A stretch of 64,000 nt of DNA, taken from Candidatus Peregrinibacteria bacterium GW2011_GWF2_43_17 (GTDB taxonomy: Bacteria > Patescibacteriota > Gracilibacteria > UBA1369 > UBA12470). Positions 14,273 to 29,852 of the stretch are shown piece by piece (within the stretch, counting starts at the first letter, position 1; the number at the start of each line of letters is the position of its first letter). Where the stretch lies: positions 62,001 through 126,000 of the forward strand of contig LCFW01000001.1 of assembly GCA_000999315.1 (NCBI GenBank), given 5' to 3'. The notes under the pieces were generated by a model. It ran no database searches. It had not been told where the DNA came from and saw nothing but the letters and a program-made list of their open reading frames with translations. A program made the position numbers and the translations under genes.

Positions 14273-15277
14273 ATGGAAAGGCTTCCTACAAAAAGAAAAG
14301 TTCTTAATCCGACATTAAGTGATCGGGATTATGTCGAAGCTCTGACTGCTGGATTTCCGAGGGTGGCTTTGATTAAGATCCAAATAAAGTCTGGATGTAC
14401 GTCAAGTGTTCTCGTTGGTACTCAACTTGATGGGATATTGCAGGTTCCAATCGTTGTGGGTGGTCGTGTTCGATTCGATGAGGGCAAGAGTTCGGTAAGC
14501 GAGATTGTCGAGGTTAGAGTTGAAGCGGACGGCAAGATCTTTTTGGAAACCGCGACATCGGTTTATAGATTGCGTATTGATCAAACTCACGCCGGCAGAT
14601 TTCGTTCTTTGCAATATTTGAGGCGCGGATATTTGGATTTTGATGAACAAATACCGAACGGTTTTTATGACGGAGGGCACAAAATGCAATTTGCCATTGA
14701 TTCCGATGGGCGATTGGAATGCGAATCGTCCGACAGAGAACTTATTTTCGTTGATGCAATTCGTGACACATGTTTGCAATCCAAAGTCGAAGGTGCCCGC
14801 AAATTTATTGAATCGGCTCCCACCACACAGGCGAAGATCCAAATGCTTGCCATGTTTGTTTCCAATGCGCTTGGAGGTTCCCAGATGGTGGCGGACGGAT
14901 ATGGCGATATTGTTCAATTGACCGAGGCGAATATTCAACGTTGCAAGATTTCCAGGGCGAATGTTGACGATGTTGTTCTCCTGGGTTATTTGAATCATGG
15001 TGTTTGCAGGCATAGAGCGATACTTTTTAAATATCTTGCTGATCGTTTAGGTATTCAATCGAGACTTGTTAGAGGTAAACAAGCCAGAGATCAATGGCAC
15101 TGTTGGAATGTGGTCGAACTCGATGGTAAAAATTATATTGTTGACGTTATGCAACAGCCGTGGAAACTTATCGAAGAGGGGAGTCCCGAGGTTGATATTT
15201 ATAGGAGAGCGACTCATGAAAAAGGCAGGCGTATTTTTGCGGGTATGGGTGGTGGAAGTATCGTTATAGGCAAGTAG
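14273..15277 (+). CDS. transglutaminase-like protein of the EDR1/CTR1 N-terminal domain type
   Basis: 334 aa. The segment LNHGVCRHRAILFKYLADRLGIQSRLVRG...WHCWNVVELDGKNYIVDVM matches the papain-like transglutaminase-like fold found at the N-terminus of plant CTR1/EDR1 kinases and in some bacterial proteins. The Cys245-His276-Asp291 triad is intact, so peptidase or deamidase-type activity is plausible. The first 150 residues are beta-rich and unrecognised. No kinase domain, signal peptide or membrane helix follows. It sits 18 bp after the SLT gene and 42 bp before uridine phosphorylase. Substrate is unknown. Confidence 0.7.
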   Translation: MERLPTKRKVLNPTLSDRDYVEALTAGFPRVALIKIQIKSGCTSSVLVGTQLDGILQVPIVVGGRVRFDEGKSSVSEIVEVRVEADGKIFLETATSVYRLRIDQTHAGRFRSLQYLRRGYLDFDEQIPNGFYDGGHKMQFAIDSDGRLECESSDRELIFVDAIRDTCLQSKVEGARKFIESAPTTQAKIQMLAMFVSNALGGSQMVADGYGDIVQLTEANIQRCKISRANVDDVVLLGYLNHGVCRHRAILFKYLADRLGIQSRLVRGKQARDQWHCWNVVELDGKNYIVDVMQQPWKLIEEGSPEVDIYRRATHEKGRRIFAGMGGGSIVIGK

Positions 15278-19936: not shown

Positions 19937-20488
19937 ATGGCAGATGGGAAAAAATGTTCTTGCGAATCGTCCTGTAAGGGGATTGTGGTTTTTCTTGTTG
20001 GGTTGGTTGTCGGAGGCGTGATAATGGGCGTTTTCGCGATGTTCGGGAAGTTGGATTTTCTGAGTGATGCGATAACGAAATCGCAGCTTACAGGTACGCA
20101 ACCGGGTGTTTTGATACAACAAGATGCTAGCGGGAATTGGTATCAGAGTTCGGAGCCAACCGTTACGGGTACTTGGGTAAAAGTTGAGACCGGTTCGTTG
20201 GTTAAGCTCGTAAGCGGACAAACTTTCCAAACTCAAGATGGTCGAGAGGTGTCACTTCAGGCTGACGCTTGGTTGCAGACCTATGATATATCTTGGGTTC
20301 AATTTTCCGATGCCACCACTACGGTTTTGAAACAGGGTGCTTGGGTGAAATTGCCGAACGATATGGTCTTCAAGGCTAAGGCGGGTGGTGTTGTAAATCT
20401 TCCGAAAGATACGGTTGTACAACTTTTGTCCAATGCGAATGTTGAATTGGAGGAGAGAACGTCCGATGCGGAAATAATGCCGTTATAA
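19937..20488 (+). CDS. single-pass membrane protein of unknown function
   Basis: 183 aa. A short Cys-containing head (MADGKKCSCESSCKG) precedes one transmembrane helix (residues about 15-38, IVVFLVGLVVGGVIMGVFAMF). The rest is an exported, beta-rich region with repeated G-x-W-V-K and V-K-L patterns (GTWVKVETGSLVKLVSG, GAWVKLPNDMVFK, GVVNLPKDTVVQL) suggesting a small repeat-built beta solenoid or FecR-like sandwich. Function unknown. Its 3' end overlaps the end of the convergent cyclase-like gene by 6 bp. Confidence 0.75.
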   Translation: MADGKKCSCESSCKGIVVFLVGLVVGGVIMGVFAMFGKLDFLSDAITKSQLTGTQPGVLIQQDASGNWYQSSEPTVTGTWVKVETGSLVKLVSGQTFQTQDGREVSLQADAWLQTYDISWVQFSDATTTVLKQGAWVKLPNDMVFKAKAGGVVNLPKDTVVQLLSNANVELEERTSDAEIMPL

Positions 20489-23400
20489 AGACTCTTGAAA
20501 TCCTTGTATGATTGGGTCAACGTATACCCGGAATGTTTCCAATTCCGGGTGTGTGGTAAAATAGTCCGAGATTGTTTTTACCGTTTCGTGTCCTCTGACG
20601 ATATTGATGGTGCGTTCTTCATTTCGTGAATGCTTGAGGTTTTCTATGATTATTTCCAATCTGGTTGCGTGCATGAATAGAATTTTTTGTGCCGTAAATC
20701 TTATTTCGTCGGGCGATATGGATCCGATCATTTCCACTGTGTTTTGATATTCGTCTTCGCCTCTTCTGAATAATTCCATGTTGTTCAGGAGGGTGCCGCC
20801 AAGGTGCAAGAAGTTTATTAAAAATACGCGACCTTGCAGTTCCAATCCGAAATAGCCGTTTTCAGATGCTGTTTCGATTAATTCTCGGGTAAATTGTATG
20901 ATCCCGTCTAGCCGTTCCGGTTCGATTTTTCCGCCGATTGATGCTCTGGTTATTCCAGTTCTTGGCAAGTATAATGCCCTTTCGATATAACTTTTTTGTT
21001 TTCTTTTTTCTGCGGGAGTTTCTTCGAGATTTGTTTTAAGTTCATCTTCGTATTCCGAAAGCGCTTGTTCGCGGGTTTTATCTCCGAGGTCGCCTTCTTT
21101 CAGGAGCCCTCGCAGTAATTTGTATCCTCGCGTGAGCAGTTTTAAAGTTGCGAACTCTTCTTTGAGTTTTTCATCCGTGATTTCTTCGGAGTTTATGGAT
21201 TCCAGTATGGCTATCGAAGCGTCTATCTCTTTAATCCTCTCGTTAGGCGGAACTTCGTCGGATTTGTGGAAGTGCAAACTGGCGGTGTAAATTCGAAGTT
21301 CGATGTCGCTTTCCGGTACTTCGCGGCTTAGTTTTTCCAAGCTTGCCGTGGCGAGATTAATATCTTTATTGGCATAGTGAACTTTGCATGTGAGCTTGAG
21401 CAGTGCGATTTTTTGAGCTTGAGATTGCGGTAGACTTGCGGCTCTCGAGAGCGCTTCTTTGTTATCTCTGCCGATTGTAAGATTGTTCTCTATCAGGAGA
21501 AGATATGCGTCCAGGATTTGGCTTGGGTCTTGCGGCTCACGGATTGATTTTAAAAATCTTTCAAGCAAATATGTCGCTCTTGTCAGTTCTCCTTTGGCGG
21601 TAAGAGTTTTTACATGCGATATTACGGTTTCGATTACCGCTGGTCGTGAAGTTAAATCGAGTCGTTCGCAAATTTGGACATATTTTTCCGGGGTATCTGT
21701 GCCTGTTCGCGCGTTGATTTCGATCTCGTCTATTTCGTTCGGTGTCGGTTTCAAGTTGTCCAACGCTATCGCTGTTTGTGCGAAGAAAGAATTTTTGAAT
21801 CTTAGCGGTGGTGGTCCGGGTTCCAATATTTCGTTGCGATATAGCATCCTCAAGGGTACCGTAATATTTGTGCCGGCTATTTTTGCAAGTTCTTTTATGC
21901 TACATTCCGCGCCGATTGCTACCAGGATTTTGAGCAGTTTTCTTGCGGGTTCCGATTTTTCCACTTCTTGTGTTTTTTCTCTTACGATTCCTTCTTGAAA
22001 TTCCGTCATTGTGGCTCTTACGGTTATTTCCGCGGCTTTGCTTTCATCAAAAGCGGCTGAGCCTTTGTTGATGGCTGAAGCTTTTAATAAATCCGACAGA
22101 AGAGCTCGAACAAGCGTTGGGTTGCGCCTGCCGTTTGTTTCCGGAATTTCTCTTTGTATGTAGTTTATTAGATGTATGTCCGGTTCGGTTTCTATCTGTA
22201 ATATGTTTTGTATTGTTGAGGTGATCTCTTCCGAAGTTACTCCTCTGATTTTAAAAGTATCGCACGTATTTCCCGTTTTTCCTGTGGATATTAATATTAT
22301 GCGTGCTCTGTAAAGTATCTTTTGAGAATATTCGTCCATTTTGTGTATGTTGGGGCATGCGATTCCCAAATTTTCTATCAGATTAAGTATGGTCGTGAGT
22401 TCGTTTTCCACGGTTGTCGGTTCCGTTGGTATTTTCGACTTTTCGGCAAGTTCTTTATATATGCTTGCCCATATTTTTTGTTGATTTGCGGCGATTCCCA
22501 TTTTTTCCATCCAGCTTTCAAAATCTTCTTTTGACGGGAATAATTTTCGGAGTATTTCCGATATGCCTCTGAAAGGGATATCTTCCTGATATTCATCCGT
22601 GACAATCATGTATTTGTTTGTTCGAATTGCCGTTTCTCGTAGAATCGAGTGTTTGCCGACTCCGGTTTCGCCTTCGAGGTGTATATGTTTGCCAGCTGTT
22701 AATGTCGAAATAGTTTCTACAAGGTTGATTACTTCGGATTCGCTGGCTGTAAACGGCGGGGTTTCCGGCAGTTCGAAACTGTCGCATGTTGTTACCTGAT
22801 GAACTCCGATTCTTCGCAAATTCAAAGGGCCTTCGATTTTGATTCCGCGCGGGCTTATTCGTGCCGTTTCCAGTCTTTCCTTGGCGTTTCTCCCGATTCG
22901 AATTCGTCCCATCGTTCTTTCTCCGATGTCGATTCCTTCCGGTATGTTTGCGGTTGTCGCGTGTCCCAATCTTGCAGTTACGTTTATGGCGTCCGATATG
23001 TCGGCGGTAAGTGTGTCCGGCGTGAGAATTCTTCCGCTTTCGGTTCCTATTTGCAGTACTTCTCCGAGTTCTTCGGTCAATCTGTTTACAAATCTTGCCA
23101 ATCTTTCTTCTTGCTTGAATGGGCTTGAACCTTGCGCGCCGAGTATGACGATTGCTCTTTTCTCCCCTTTTTCTATTTCTATGTGTAAAACTTTCGCATC
23201 GAATTGATCGGCGAGGCTTTCCAAATATCGTTCCCATGTAAGGATCGTATCTCCCGATTTTGCCGGTGTTTTGATATAGATTGAAGTTGCTCTTCTTTCG
23301 GTTGGTTCTTCGAGTTGTACTGCGGCCGGGGTTATGGTTGATGCGACGACCGCCATCTGTTTTTTCACCTCATCTATAAGTCTTGTCATGTCGTTCGGTG

Positions 23401-24337
23401 GACGTGTGTTTTTGAAAAAATGTATTGCCGATGGCGGCGGTTCTCCCAGTGTGACTGATTCGGGTGTCGGGTAACCTTCGGTTTTTTGACCGTTGTCGAG
23501 ATATATGCTGACATCGCCGCCGTGTTTTTTATGTCCGTCTTGCGCCGAGAGGGCTTGATCGGATGCGGGTCCTTCCACGACAACTTTTCCGTAAGGGGTC
23601 TTTGTTATCGTATATTTGCCTCTGCCTATTCCTATGTGCGATCTTTTGCCGGCGTTTATCAAATTTCTCGATAATGTTTCGGCGAATCTTATGTCTTCGT
23701 TGTTTTCCGGATTTTCGCATACGCATATGATTTCATCTCCGATGGTTTTTATGAATTTTACTTTTGGGAAGTATCTTATTGTTTCAAAAAACGGTTCAAA
23801 AAAGGTTTCGCCGAAATTTCTTGCCGTTTCAGCTTCTCCGAGTTCGTGCGTTATTCCCGAGAAGCCTTCGGCATCTATTCTTATCACGCTTCCTTGATAC
23901 TCTTTTGTGCCTACGAACTCTTTTTCTTCGGCCGATTCGAGAAGATGGACTATTCCGTTTATACGGGTTGTGAATTTTTGTTCAAAAAGTATCAAAAGAT
24001 CTCTTAATTGCGGGAAATCCGGGTGGTTTAGAATTGCCGTTGTTGCCGTTTTGTCCAGGAAGGGGAGCCTGAGTTTTAATAGTGCGCGATATAAGCCGTG
24101 TTCTTGCGCGACAGCTTCTTTGACGACTGGACGTTCTCTGATTTCGCATTCCGCTTTTCTTATGTCGAAAAATTTTGATGGGTTTTCTAGAAGTGCAAGC
24201 CATGTTAGATAGCCTCGGGGTTTGCCGAGCACATCCGCCGTTCTTTCCGCCGTTTCTTCCCTTAGAGGTAGTGGCGAAGTTGGTGTGGGTGTTGTTGTTG
24301 CGACTGTTTCTTGCTGCGGAGTTTCGTTTGGGCCCAT
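20483..24337 (-). CDS. soluble-adenylyl-cyclase-like protein: tandem class III cyclase domains, AAA/STAND ATPase, TPR region
   Basis: 1284 aa from ATG 24337 (an upstream TTG at 24358 lies in the -10 box). Domain order matches ADCY10-type soluble adenylyl cyclases. A first class III cyclase domain (about 148-265) has both metal-binding Asp: Asp155 in VIRIDAEGFSG and Asp201 in KTIGDEI. A second (about 350-470) lacks them but holds the catalytic Asn452/Arg456 pair in AINVTAR. The two halves thus complement each other to build one active site, as in mammalian sAC. A P-loop ATPase (GETGVGKHS, with His where Ser/Thr is usual) follows. The remaining roughly 500 residues are helical repeats. Product (cAMP or cGMP) is inferred, not shown. 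Confidence 0.82.
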   Translation of the reverse strand: MGPNETPQQETVATTTPTPTSPLPLREETAERTADVLGKPRGYLTWLALLENPSKFFDIRKAECEIRERPVVKEAVAQEHGLYRALLKLRLPFLDKTATTAILNHPDFPQLRDLLILFEQKFTTRINGIVHLLESAEEKEFVGTKEYQGSVIRIDAEGFSGITHELGEAETARNFGETFFEPFFETIRYFPKVKFIKTIGDEIICVCENPENNEDIRFAETLSRNLINAGKRSHIGIGRGKYTITKTPYGKVVVEGPASDQALSAQDGHKKHGGDVSIYLDNGQKTEGYPTPESVTLGEPPPSAIHFFKNTRPPNDMTRLIDEVKKQMAVVASTITPAAVQLEEPTERRATSIYIKTPAKSGDTILTWERYLESLADQFDAKVLHIEIEKGEKRAIVILGAQGSSPFKQEERLARFVNRLTEELGEVLQIGTESGRILTPDTLTADISDAINVTARLGHATTANIPEGIDIGERTMGRIRIGRNAKERLETARISPRGIKIEGPLNLRRIGVHQVTTCDSFELPETPPFTASESEVINLVETISTLTAGKHIHLEGETGVGKHSILRETAIRTNKYMIVTDEYQEDIPFRGISEILRKLFPSKEDFESWMEKMGIAANQQKIWASIYKELAEKSKIPTEPTTVENELTTILNLIENLGIACPNIHKMDEYSQKILYRARIILISTGKTGNTCDTFKIRGVTSEEITSTIQNILQIETEPDIHLINYIQREIPETNGRRNPTLVRALLSDLLKASAINKGSAAFDESKAAEITVRATMTEFQEGIVREKTQEVEKSEPARKLLKILVAIGAECSIKELAKIAGTNITVPLRMLYRNEILEPGPPPLRFKNSFFAQTAIALDNLKPTPNEIDEIEINARTGTDTPEKYVQICERLDLTSRPAVIETVISHVKTLTAKGELTRATYLLERFLKSIREPQDPSQILDAYLLLIENNLTIGRDNKEALSRAASLPQSQAQKIALLKLTCKVHYANKDINLATASLEKLSREVPESDIELRIYTASLHFHKSDEVPPNERIKEIDASIAILESINSEEITDEKLKEEFATLKLLTRGYKLLRGLLKEGDLGDKTREQALSEYEDELKTNLEETPAEKRKQKSYIERALYLPRTGITRASIGGKIEPERLDGIIQFTRELIETASENGYFGLELQGRVFLINFLHLGGTLLNNMELFRRGEDEYQNTVEMIGSISPDEIRFTAQKILFMHATRLEIIIENLKHSRNEERTINIVRGHETVKTISDYFTTHPELETFRVYVDPIIQGFQESL

Positions 24338-24357
24338 ATTGTTTTTCGAAGGGCGCA

Positions 24358-24408
24358 ATTCTGACAGGAATGTGGTGTTTTGTCAATCGGTAACGGATGT
24401 GGTAAGAT
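24358..24408. promoter_or_regulatory. back-to-back divergent promoters sharing overlapping -35 boxes
   Basis: Plus strand: TTGTCA (24380-24385), 17 bp, TAAGAT (24403-24408), then ATG 24417 after 8 nt. Minus strand: TTGACA (24381-24386), 17 bp, CAGAAT (24358-24363), leading to the cyclase ATG at 24337. The two -35 hexamers share five base pairs, so the polymerases must exclude each other, which links the permease and the cyclase-like gene in regulation. Confidence 0.7.
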
Positions 24409-24416
24409 AGGAATTG

Positions 24417-25661
24417 ATGATTTCTTCGTATTTAAAGTTATCTCTGACGGCTCTTCGTGCGAATAAGATGCGAACGCTTTTGACGACTATAGGTATAGTT
24501 ATCGGGATGATGATGGTGATTGTGGTTTTTTCTCTCGGACATGCGACGCAGGCGATAGTTACCGCACAACTTGAGTCTTATGGTGCCAATACGATTGTTG
24601 TCGAGGTTAAAACGCCGGGTGTTTCGGAAATGAGTCCCGGGTCGGCTACGGCGATGATGGAAGGCGTTACGGTTGCGACTTTGAAAGAAGAAGATATGGA
24701 AGATGCGTTTTTGATTCCCGGGGTGACCGATGGTTATGCCGCAGTAATGGGGCTTGAACGCATTGTTTCGGTTTATGATGATCAGCAATATATGATTCAG
24801 GGGGTTTCGGCATCTTTTATAGATATAGATCAAAGCGATGTCGAATACGGGAGATTTTTTACTGCGTCGGAGGATAAAAGTTTGGCTCGGGTTGTCGTTC
24901 TCGGGAAAGGTGTTGCGGAGGAATTATTTCCCGATGTGGATCCCTTGGGGCAGAGTGTGAGGATAGGGGAGCTGAATTTTAAAATTATAGGAGTGATGGA
25001 GTCGCTCGGAGTGGTCTTTTTTCAAAACATGGATGATATGGTTTACTTGCCACTGAATACGACGCAGAAATTGATTATGGGTATAGATTATGTTCCTTAT
25101 TTTTTGTTGCAGGTTGAAAATGAAGAGATGGTGGAGGCGATTAAAAACGATGTTATCGCACTTCTCGATCAGAGGCATGATATTGTCGGTGAAGATAAGA
25201 GAGATTTTCGTGTGACGACGATGGATGAAGCGATTTCTATGATGGATGGCGTTACCGGAGCTTTGCAGATTTTATTGATAGTTTTGGCAGGAATTTCGTT
25301 GGTGGTCGGTGGAGTGGGGGTGATGAATGTGATGTTTGTCGCCGTTACCGAACGTACGCGCGAAATAGGGCTTAGAAAAGCTGTCGGTGCTACGTCGCGC
25401 GCCGTGCTTTGTCAGTTTCTGTGCGAGTCGGTTTTGGTAACTTTCGTTGGCGGGGTGCTTGGGATTTTGCTCGGGCTGATGGTGGTTTGGTTGTCTGTCG
25501 TTGTTGCCGGCTTGGTTGGAGTTGAAATCGAGTTTTTTGTGCCCGTCGGAGGAATTATTTTGGCGATAGGGGCGGCTTTCGCGGAAGGAATTTTGTTCGG
25601 TGTTTATCCTGCGAAAAAGGCGGCGGGGTTGAATCCGATTGAGAGCTTGAGGTACGAGTAG
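24417..25661 (+). CDS. MacB-like ABC transporter permease (second copy)
   Basis: About 414 aa. The preferred start is ATG 24417 rather than the in-frame TTG 24414. Topology is 1+3 helices with a large extracytoplasmic core. FtsX-family motif ERTREIGLRKAVGATSRAVL and C-terminal GVYPAKKAAGLNPIESLRYE are present. It is closely related to the permease at 18.6 kb, but no ATPase gene is adjacent, so it probably shares the ATPase at 17.9 kb or another in the genome. It is transcribed divergently from the cyclase-like gene. Confidence 0.92.
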   Translation: MISSYLKLSLTALRANKMRTLLTTIGIVIGMMMVIVVFSLGHATQAIVTAQLESYGANTIVVEVKTPGVSEMSPGSATAMMEGVTVATLKEEDMEDAFLIPGVTDGYAAVMGLERIVSVYDDQQYMIQGVSASFIDIDQSDVEYGRFFTASEDKSLARVVVLGKGVAEELFPDVDPLGQSVRIGELNFKIIGVMESLGVVFFQNMDDMVYLPLNTTQKLIMGIDYVPYFLLQVENEEMVEAIKNDVIALLDQRHDIVGEDKRDFRVTTMDEAISMMDGVTGALQILLIVLAGISLVVGGVGVMNVMFVAVTERTREIGLRKAVGATSRAVLCQFLCESVLVTFVGGVLGILLGLMVVWLSVVVAGLVGVEIEFFVPVGGIILAIGAAFAEGILFGVYPAKKAAGLNPIESLRYE

Positions 25662-28535: not shown

Positions 28536-29852
28536 ATGCAAAAGGAGTATATCAATTTGAAATTAAACCCTTTAAAAGGTGGCAAGTATATGCTTGCAGT
28601 TTTCCACTTGGTTCCGAAGCCCGGAGAAGATTTTTTGAGTTGTGCGTCTGAAGTTGCGTCGGAGTCCAGCACAGGTTCAAATTTGAGAGTCGGTACGGCG
28701 ACGAAATTCTCGGACAATTTGAATGCAATAGTTTATAAAATCGATAAGAAGAAAAATCTGGTTTGGATCGCTTTTCCGTGGAAGATTTTTGATAGGGGAG
28801 GGAATGTGCAAAATATTCTTACTTATGTTGTTGGGAATGTTTTCGGGATGGGTGATTTATCGGCTTTGAAAGCGCTTGATTGTTGGTTCCCGAAGGAGAT
28901 GCTTGAACATTATGATGGTCCTGCGACTACGATTCATGATTTGAAAAAATATTTAGGTGTTAAGGGGCGTCCGGTTTTGGGTACGATTGTTAAGCCGAAA
29001 ATAGGCTTGAAGCCGAAACAATTCGCTGATGTTTGTTATAAGTTCTGGAAAGGCGGAGGCGATTTCGTGAAATTCGATGAGCCGCAAGCCGATCAAGAGT
29101 TTTGTCCTTTTAAGGAAGCTATTGATGAGATAGTTAAGGCTATGGCCAAAGTCGAGAAGGAGACCGGTAAGAAAAAAGTTATGTCGATTAATATTTCCGC
29201 GGCAGATTTTATGACTATGCAAAAGAGGGCCGAATATGTGATCAAAAAGATGAAAAAGGGAAGTTATGCTTTCTTGGTTGACGGACTTACTGCCGGGTGG
29301 ACTGCCGTGCAGACCGCTCGAAGGATGTGGCCTGGTGTTTTTCTCCATTTTCATAGGGCCGGGCATGGTGCTATGACAAGACCCGAGAATCCTATCGGAT
29401 ATACCGTGCCATTTATGACCAAAATGGGAAGATTGGCCGGGGCGTCGGGTATGCATACCGGTACTGCAGGGATAGGGAAGATGGAAGGAAGTGCGAAAGA
29501 GGATGTAATGGCGGCTCATCATGCTTTGTTTGCCAAGTCCGAGGGTGATTTCTTTGATCAGGATTGGTATGGGATGAAGCCGATGTGTCCGATTGCGTCC
29601 GGTGGATTGAATCCTATTTTGCTCAAACCTTTTGCCGATGTCGTTGGCACGACGGATTTTATTACAACTATGGGTGGAGGTGTTCATTCGCATCCGGGTG
29701 GAACGGAGAAAGGCGCTATGGCTTTAGTGCAGGCGTGTGATGCATGGAAGAAAGGAATTTCGATTAAAGAGTATGCTAAAAATCATAAAGAGCTTGCGCA
29801 GGCGATCGGGTTTTATAAGGAGAAGGTGGGGTATTCGAAGAAGTACCTGTAG
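28536..29852 (+). CDS. ribulose-1,5-bisphosphate carboxylase/oxygenase, form II/III
   Basis: 438 aa. Carboxylates RuBP to two 3-phosphoglycerates. Active-site residues are intact: catalytic Lys153 in GTIVKPKIGLKP, carbamylated Lys179 with metal ligands Asp181/Glu182 in GGDFVKFDEP, His273 in HFHRAGHGA, loop-6 Lys315 in TGTAGIGKMEG, SGGLNP and TMGGGVHSHPGG. The KFDE variant (Phe where form II has Asn) and the overall sequence fit the hybrid form II/III known from Peregrinibacteria and methanogens. There it works in a nucleoside/AMP salvage route, not a Calvin cycle. No phosphoribulokinase is nearby. Residue numbers count from the ATG used here. Confidence 0.95.
   Translation: MQKEYINLKLNPLKGGKYMLAVFHLVPKPGEDFLSCASEVASESSTGSNLRVGTATKFSDNLNAIVYKIDKKKNLVWIAFPWKIFDRGGNVQNILTYVVGNVFGMGDLSALKALDCWFPKEMLEHYDGPATTIHDLKKYLGVKGRPVLGTIVKPKIGLKPKQFADVCYKFWKGGGDFVKFDEPQADQEFCPFKEAIDEIVKAMAKVEKETGKKKVMSINISAADFMTMQKRAEYVIKKMKKGSYAFLVDGLTAGWTAVQTARRMWPGVFLHFHRAGHGAMTRPENPIGYTVPFMTKMGRLAGASGMHTGTAGIGKMEGSAKEDVMAAHHALFAKSEGDFFDQDWYGMKPMCPIASGGLNPILLKPFADVVGTTDFITTMGGGVHSHPGGTEKGAMALVQACDAWKKGISIKEYAKNHKELAQAIGFYKEKVGYSKKYL

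Follow-up and report, generated by a model that had tools for sequence, protein, structure and literature searches.

Closest described systems

In human soluble adenylyl cyclase (sAC, ADCY10), two class III cyclase domains, C1 and C2, are followed by an NTPase-like domain (PMC6023465). The metal-binding aspartates D47 and D99 are located on C1, N412 and R416 on C2 (PMC12867704, Table 1), and the residues of the bicarbonate site are K95 and R176 (PMC12867704). A sAC-like domain structure has also been described for bacterial class III cyclases, to judge by the title of a 2004 report by Kobayashi, Buck and Levin that PMC6023465 cites. In our literature search, no paper was found that connects Peregrinibacteria, or the Candidate Phyla Radiation together with cyclic AMP, to adenylate cyclase.

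We analyzed a 64,000-nucleotide stretch of a Peregrinibacterial genome (the window) that encodes a large soluble protein of this general type:

20483..24337, minus strand, sAC-like protein of 1284 aa, from the ATG at 24337 to the stop; no predicted membrane span

Comparison with the described systems identifies three features shared with human sAC: (i) a C1-C2 tandem, (ii) metal-binding Asp residues on C1 and the Asn/Arg pair on C2, and (iii) a putative, degenerate NTPase-like domain placed next. The initial annotation had described this order as that of animal ADCY10; the C1-C2 tandem with a P-loop region behind it is present, but the order is not peculiar to animals, because bacterial proteins with a sAC-like architecture have been described (PMC6023465, by the cited title). 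The Peregrinibacterial family differs from human sAC by an identity of only 12-15% in structural alignments, by the absence of the Walker Lys in most members, and by the lack of conservation of the adenine-recognition Lys (sAC K334). It resembles the bacterial sAC-like cyclases in domain structure, as far as the title of that report goes; unlike them, it falls below Pfam recognition and is found only in a few Peregrinibacteria. The CHASE2-Guanylate_cyc membrane cyclases of the same order (e.g. L084:6888-8894) have the class III machinery, the lineage, and the likely effectors in common with the window protein; they differ in having a CHASE2 sensor, a clear Pfam match, and a single cyclase domain per chain with all catalytic residues, and thus act as homodimers.

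We propose that the window protein is probably a divergent, soluble C1-C2 class III nucleotidyl cyclase of the soluble adenylyl cyclase type, with predicted activity. It is of interest not for its split active site but for the lineage that carries it, for a divergence so great that databases fail to recognise it, and because the standard cyclase has apparently been lost from the genome.

The gene and its homologs

The large open reading frame reported initially, with its 1284-aa product, is present: the minus-strand frame spans 20483-24358 and has 1291 codons if counted from a TTG. Translation more likely begins at the ATG at 24337, since the -10 box of the upstream promoter-like site reaches to 24358, which would place a TTG start ahead of the transcript.

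24386-24358, minus strand, promoter-like site of the cyclase gene, TTGACA-17-CAGAAT, with consensus-level boxes

The source genome is 1.2 Mb long, with a completeness estimate of 100%.

Four homologs were identified: two belong to the taxonomic family of the window genome, and the other two to a different family of the order. They are 22-31% identical to the window protein over the whole length and 26-37% over the cyclase region. A class-wide search of 353 genomes gave no hits beyond these five proteins, and an even sample of the phylum (380 genomes) yielded the window genome plus a single weak, distant relative of 585 aa. No members of the family were found in the viral contigs searched, and a three-member query against genome contigs matched only the two known relatives. 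Other Peregrinibacteria encode proteins of 820-1080 aa with weak class III cyclase matches (L086:3718-6960, L087:3605-6859, and L088:4677-7148); two of them adjoin a gyrB-like gene, and all are unlike the window protein.

Two class III cyclase-like domains

The N-terminal half of the protein comprises two cyclase-like domains, each assigned with a domain-only profile and hhalign:

23438..23935, minus strand, C1 class III cyclase-like domain, residues 135-300, containing D155 and D201
22763..23305, minus strand, C2 class III cyclase-like domain, residues 345-525, containing Asn-x3-Arg and lacking the metal Asp

The window protein alone has no significant Pfam or NCBIfam match and no cyclase match in a single-sequence search of PDB, so the assignment rests on family profiles. 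With a five-member profile of residues 100-548 searched against 177,635 PDB sequences, the best seven matches are class III cyclases, headed by the guanylyl cyclase 3et6 (E 2.8e-7), and the bacterial Cya is matched at E about 1e-4. In these alignments C1 falls on the first half of the PDB cyclases, with the metal Asp, and C2 on the second half, with Asn/Arg. A class III cyclase also ranks first in PDB for the C1-only profile (E 7.6e-4), and all six matches of the C2-only profile are class III cyclases.

Comparison with 15 canonical Peregrinibacterial class III cyclases by hhalign gave a probability of 90.7 (E 1.2e-6) for C2; C1 is weak when tested alone (probability 6). The scores of both domains exceed all 100 column-shuffled controls, that of C1 being 24.5 vs a maximum of 20.2, and the catalytic residues are placed at the right columns without being imposed. 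PF00211 weakly matches C2 of one homolog (G024, E 0.0016-0.0018) and C1 of another (G002, E 0.03 and 0.19), in each case at the expected place. No similarity between C1 and C2 themselves was detectable.

Two AlphaFold models were built from three sequences, leaving out two more distant homologs. Their confidence is low (pLDDT 51-53, pTM 0.35-0.44), and the end of C2 is essentially unmodelled; both domains nevertheless have the strand and helix order of the cyclase fold. Human sAC accounts for the best 21 Foldseek matches of model 1 and the best 24 of model 2, with E-values down to 2.1e-11. Aligned over both domains, model 2 (pTM 0.44) and human sAC give a TM-score of about 0.49 at an rmsd of about 11 A, and single-domain structures reach about 0.26-0.28 against the same model. 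The two-domain alignment of this model thus suggests a sAC-like domain arrangement. Of the structural comparison proposed earlier, human sAC as the first Foldseek match stood, and the models are too poor to fix the arrangement of the domains or to place residues 155, 201, 452, and 456 in one pocket. Residues 350-470, singled out beforehand as the place where a fold other than a cyclase would speak against the annotation, match cyclases both by Foldseek on the low-confidence models and by profile. The two class III cyclase domains proposed from the sequence are thus supported by the family profiles and by the Foldseek matches led by human sAC, and the homology itself is directly supported.

It is very unlikely that the protein is instead a large regulator of the STAND type, with N-terminal domains similar to palm-fold proteins (e.g. 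GGDEF) by chance or through deep homology only. The lack of a Pfam cyclase match and the weak GGDEF_2 and DosC matches of C1 would fit such a regulator, but in every profile and fold comparison the top rank goes to class III cyclases rather than to GGDEF proteins, and the Asn-x3-Arg motif of C2 has no GGDEF counterpart.

Predicted catalytic residues

The residues aligning with the catalytic positions of class III cyclases are divided between the domains:

23873..23875, minus strand, D155 codon, metal Asp 1; invariant, aligns to a metal Asp
23735..23737, minus strand, D201 codon, metal Asp 2, in the motif KTIGDE; invariant, aligns to a metal Asp
22970..22984, minus strand, N452 to R456 codons, catalytic Asn and Arg; invariant, aligned to N/R of the canonical motif GD-x-VN-x2-[AS]R

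The positions given initially, D155/D201 on the first domain and N452/R456 on the second, are exact and complementary, and all four residues are invariant in the five family members. For randomly placed catalytic positions, all four would be among the 37 invariant positions (of 449) with a probability of 4e-5. C1 lacks Asn-x3-Arg and reads GPASDQALS where C2 reads SDAINVTAR; C2 lacks both metal Asp residues. This residue pattern is observed directly. One split site is the rule for C1-C2 tandem cyclases such as sAC and the tmACs. The complementarity singled out as noteworthy is therefore real at the level of sequence but expected, being the normal arrangement of human sAC and of tandem class III cyclases generally.

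Other positions of the site are less typical. The GD of the canonical catalytic loop is SD here. The base-recognition Lys position of C2 (K334 in human sAC) is variable across the family and lies in a gappy stretch of the alignment, so ATP specificity finds no support in this residue. K197, which is four residues before the second metal Asp and is Lys in four of the five members, presumably occupies the position of human sAC K95; at what we take to be the R176 position, the family has no conserved Arg.

C-terminal region

Behind the cyclase domains, the following features were identified:

22148..22750, minus strand, degenerate AAA_16/STAND-like P-loop region, residues 530-730, with sub-cutoff AAA_16 matches
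22646..22672, minus strand, P-loop GETGVGKHS (residues 556-564), with a Lys that the four homologs do not conserve
20486..21700, minus strand, helix-rich C-terminal tail covering residues 880-1284, with low conservation (15-25% identity)

AAA_16 matches are below cutoff in four of the five family members, the best being that of L006 (E 4.1e-6). The P-loop reads GKHS, as annotated, vs the consensus GxxGxGK[ST]; the region, however, is degenerate across the family and not merely a GKHS variant. The Walker A Lys is found only in the window protein, and in the homologs its place is taken by Q, L, Q, and V; the domain is therefore probably a degenerate ATPase, judging from sequence. The tail, annotated as a helical repeat, is helix-friendly, but no repeat family was confirmed: the only match is a weak one to TPR_hemY (E 0.0026), and the tail profile matched nothing in PDB.

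The main alternative, which we regard as unlikely, is a catalytically dead class III cyclase-like nucleotide sensor, in which C1C2 would bind ATP without cyclising it and report the nucleotide state to the C-terminal module. The degenerate P-loop domain, the lack of conservation at the base-specifying positions, and the SD in place of GD agree with such a sensor. The fold matches also include PDB 6yii of Pseudomonas aeruginosa, likewise a two-domain class III-like bacterial protein, which differs in that its PDB title says ATP-binding. Against a dead sensor, the metal Asp pair and the catalytic Asn/Arg have remained invariant in five members that are only 22-31% identical, with the probability of 4e-5 given above if these residues were free to drift.

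For an active cyclase of the C1-C2 type, the following mechanism may be proposed. C1 (about 135-300) and C2 (about 345-525) would fold back on each other as a head-to-tail pseudo-heterodimer, in which D155 and D201 of C1 would coordinate a pair of metal ions and the C2 residues N452 and R456 would act on the alpha-phosphate side, together forming one active site. The mirror site, without both residue sets, would be only regulatory. The product would most likely be cAMP from ATP, a base specificity that we infer. The P-loop NTPase-like domain, whose Walker Lys is lost in most members, and the helical tail may serve for regulation or as a scaffold, and not as a working ATPase. The likely outputs would be the two cyclic-nucleotide-binding proteins of the genome, one of them encoded directly behind a PilT-type pilus ATPase.

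Cyclic-nucleotide machinery of the genome and its relatives

A signalling protein of this size was initially considered unexpected in a reduced genome. This view does not hold: cAMP machinery is common in the relatives. Among 99 of them, 52 carry a canonical class III cyclase that passes the Pfam cutoff, and a cyclic-nucleotide-binding (cNMP-binding) domain occurs in 73; cyclic-nucleotide signalling is thus normal in this order. Both components are present in 48 of these relatives and neither in 22 (n=99, counted by hand from tables; Fisher p 9e-6). All four other carriers of the sAC-like protein also have a canonical class III cyclase; for these four of the five carriers, the sAC-like protein is therefore not the only source.

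The window genome has no PF00211 match and no match to the CHASE2 cyclase of a relative. In that relative (L084), the CHASE2 cyclase gene is located beside leuS and close to a cNMP-binding gene; the window genome (L083) keeps leuS, the same cNMP-binding gene, and its membrane-protein neighbour, without the CHASE2 cyclase. The standard cyclase has thus apparently been lost from the window genome, and the sAC-like protein is plausibly the only class III cyclase of the cell. A possible second cAMP source is the CYTH protein at L096:1345-1887 (minus strand) of the same genome, which has a sub-cutoff match to the class IV adenylate cyclase CyaB (E 3e-9, 36.9 bits vs a cutoff of 57.95).

The search for cAMP-binding, CRP-type effectors suggested initially was productive: the window genome encodes two cNMP-binding proteins with FGE..R.A cassettes, at L010:1420-2322 and L083:8667-9074, which resemble CRP-type domains (sub-cutoff CRP matches). 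These effector genes, like the absence of a canonical class III cyclase, are observed directly. One of them, a cNMP-GAF gene, directly follows a PilT-type ATPase gene (L097:5922-7884). A PilT-type ATPase paired with a cNMP-binding protein, often with GAF, was found in all five carriers (L097, L098, L099, L100, and L082) and in some other genomes; in G013, only a motif identifies the ATPase. This gene pair suggests cyclic-nucleotide control of type IV pili.

The effectors also bear on the nucleotide used. A guanylyl cyclase, or another nucleotidyl cyclase that is not an adenylyl cyclase, would agree with 3et6 as the best PDB profile match and with the variable base-recognition Lys position of C2, but it is improbable given that the cNMP-binding proteins of the genome resemble CRP-type domains and that relatives carry CHASE2 class III cyclases close to CRP-type-like cNMP-binding genes.

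Returning to the C1-C2 cyclase of the sAC type, we tentatively put forward a broader interpretation, which we hold to be possible rather than probable: the sAC-like proteins may form a subfamily of class III cyclases that has so far gone unrecognised in Peregrinibacteria, with a pseudo-NTPase regulator attached to C1-C2. In the window genome, its member would have become the sole class III cyclase once the membrane CHASE2 enzyme was lost, and it would feed cyclic-nucleotide-binding proteins, of which one would be linked to the ATPase of type IV pilus retraction. If active, the protein would provide soluble-type cyclic nucleotide synthesis, and a possible link between cAMP and pili, in bacteria of the Candidate Phyla Radiation. 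A signalling enzyme with intact catalytic residues can be situated wholly below Pfam and NCBIfam recognition, and surveys of reduced genomes may therefore undercount such enzymes.

Divergent promoter-like sites and gene neighborhood

The cyclase gene is divergent from a permease gene, and the -35 boxes of their promoter-like sites overlap:

24380..24408, plus strand, promoter-like site of the MacB-like permease gene, TTGTCA-17-TAAGAT; its -35 overlaps the minus-strand -35
24414..25661, plus strand, divergent MacB-like ABC permease, PF12704 and PF02687

The two promoter-like sites, compared with 0.3 expected, bear out the overlapping divergent promoters proposed for this pair. The divergent partner gene differs in relatives. 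In one family (three genomes), MacB-like permeases adjoin the cyclase gene, and in another (two genomes) they do not; a functional tie was thus rejected, and the adjacency is treated as inherited gene order. A defence reading was also dropped, PADLOC having given no convincing defence-system match. A RuBisCO large chain gene (28536-29852) is located near the cyclase gene in the window, as in one relative (L008). Elsewhere in the window, 14273-15277 encodes a protein with a clear match (E 4e-30) to the EDR1/CTR1/ARMC3 peptidase-like domain, which takes its name from eukaryotic proteins.
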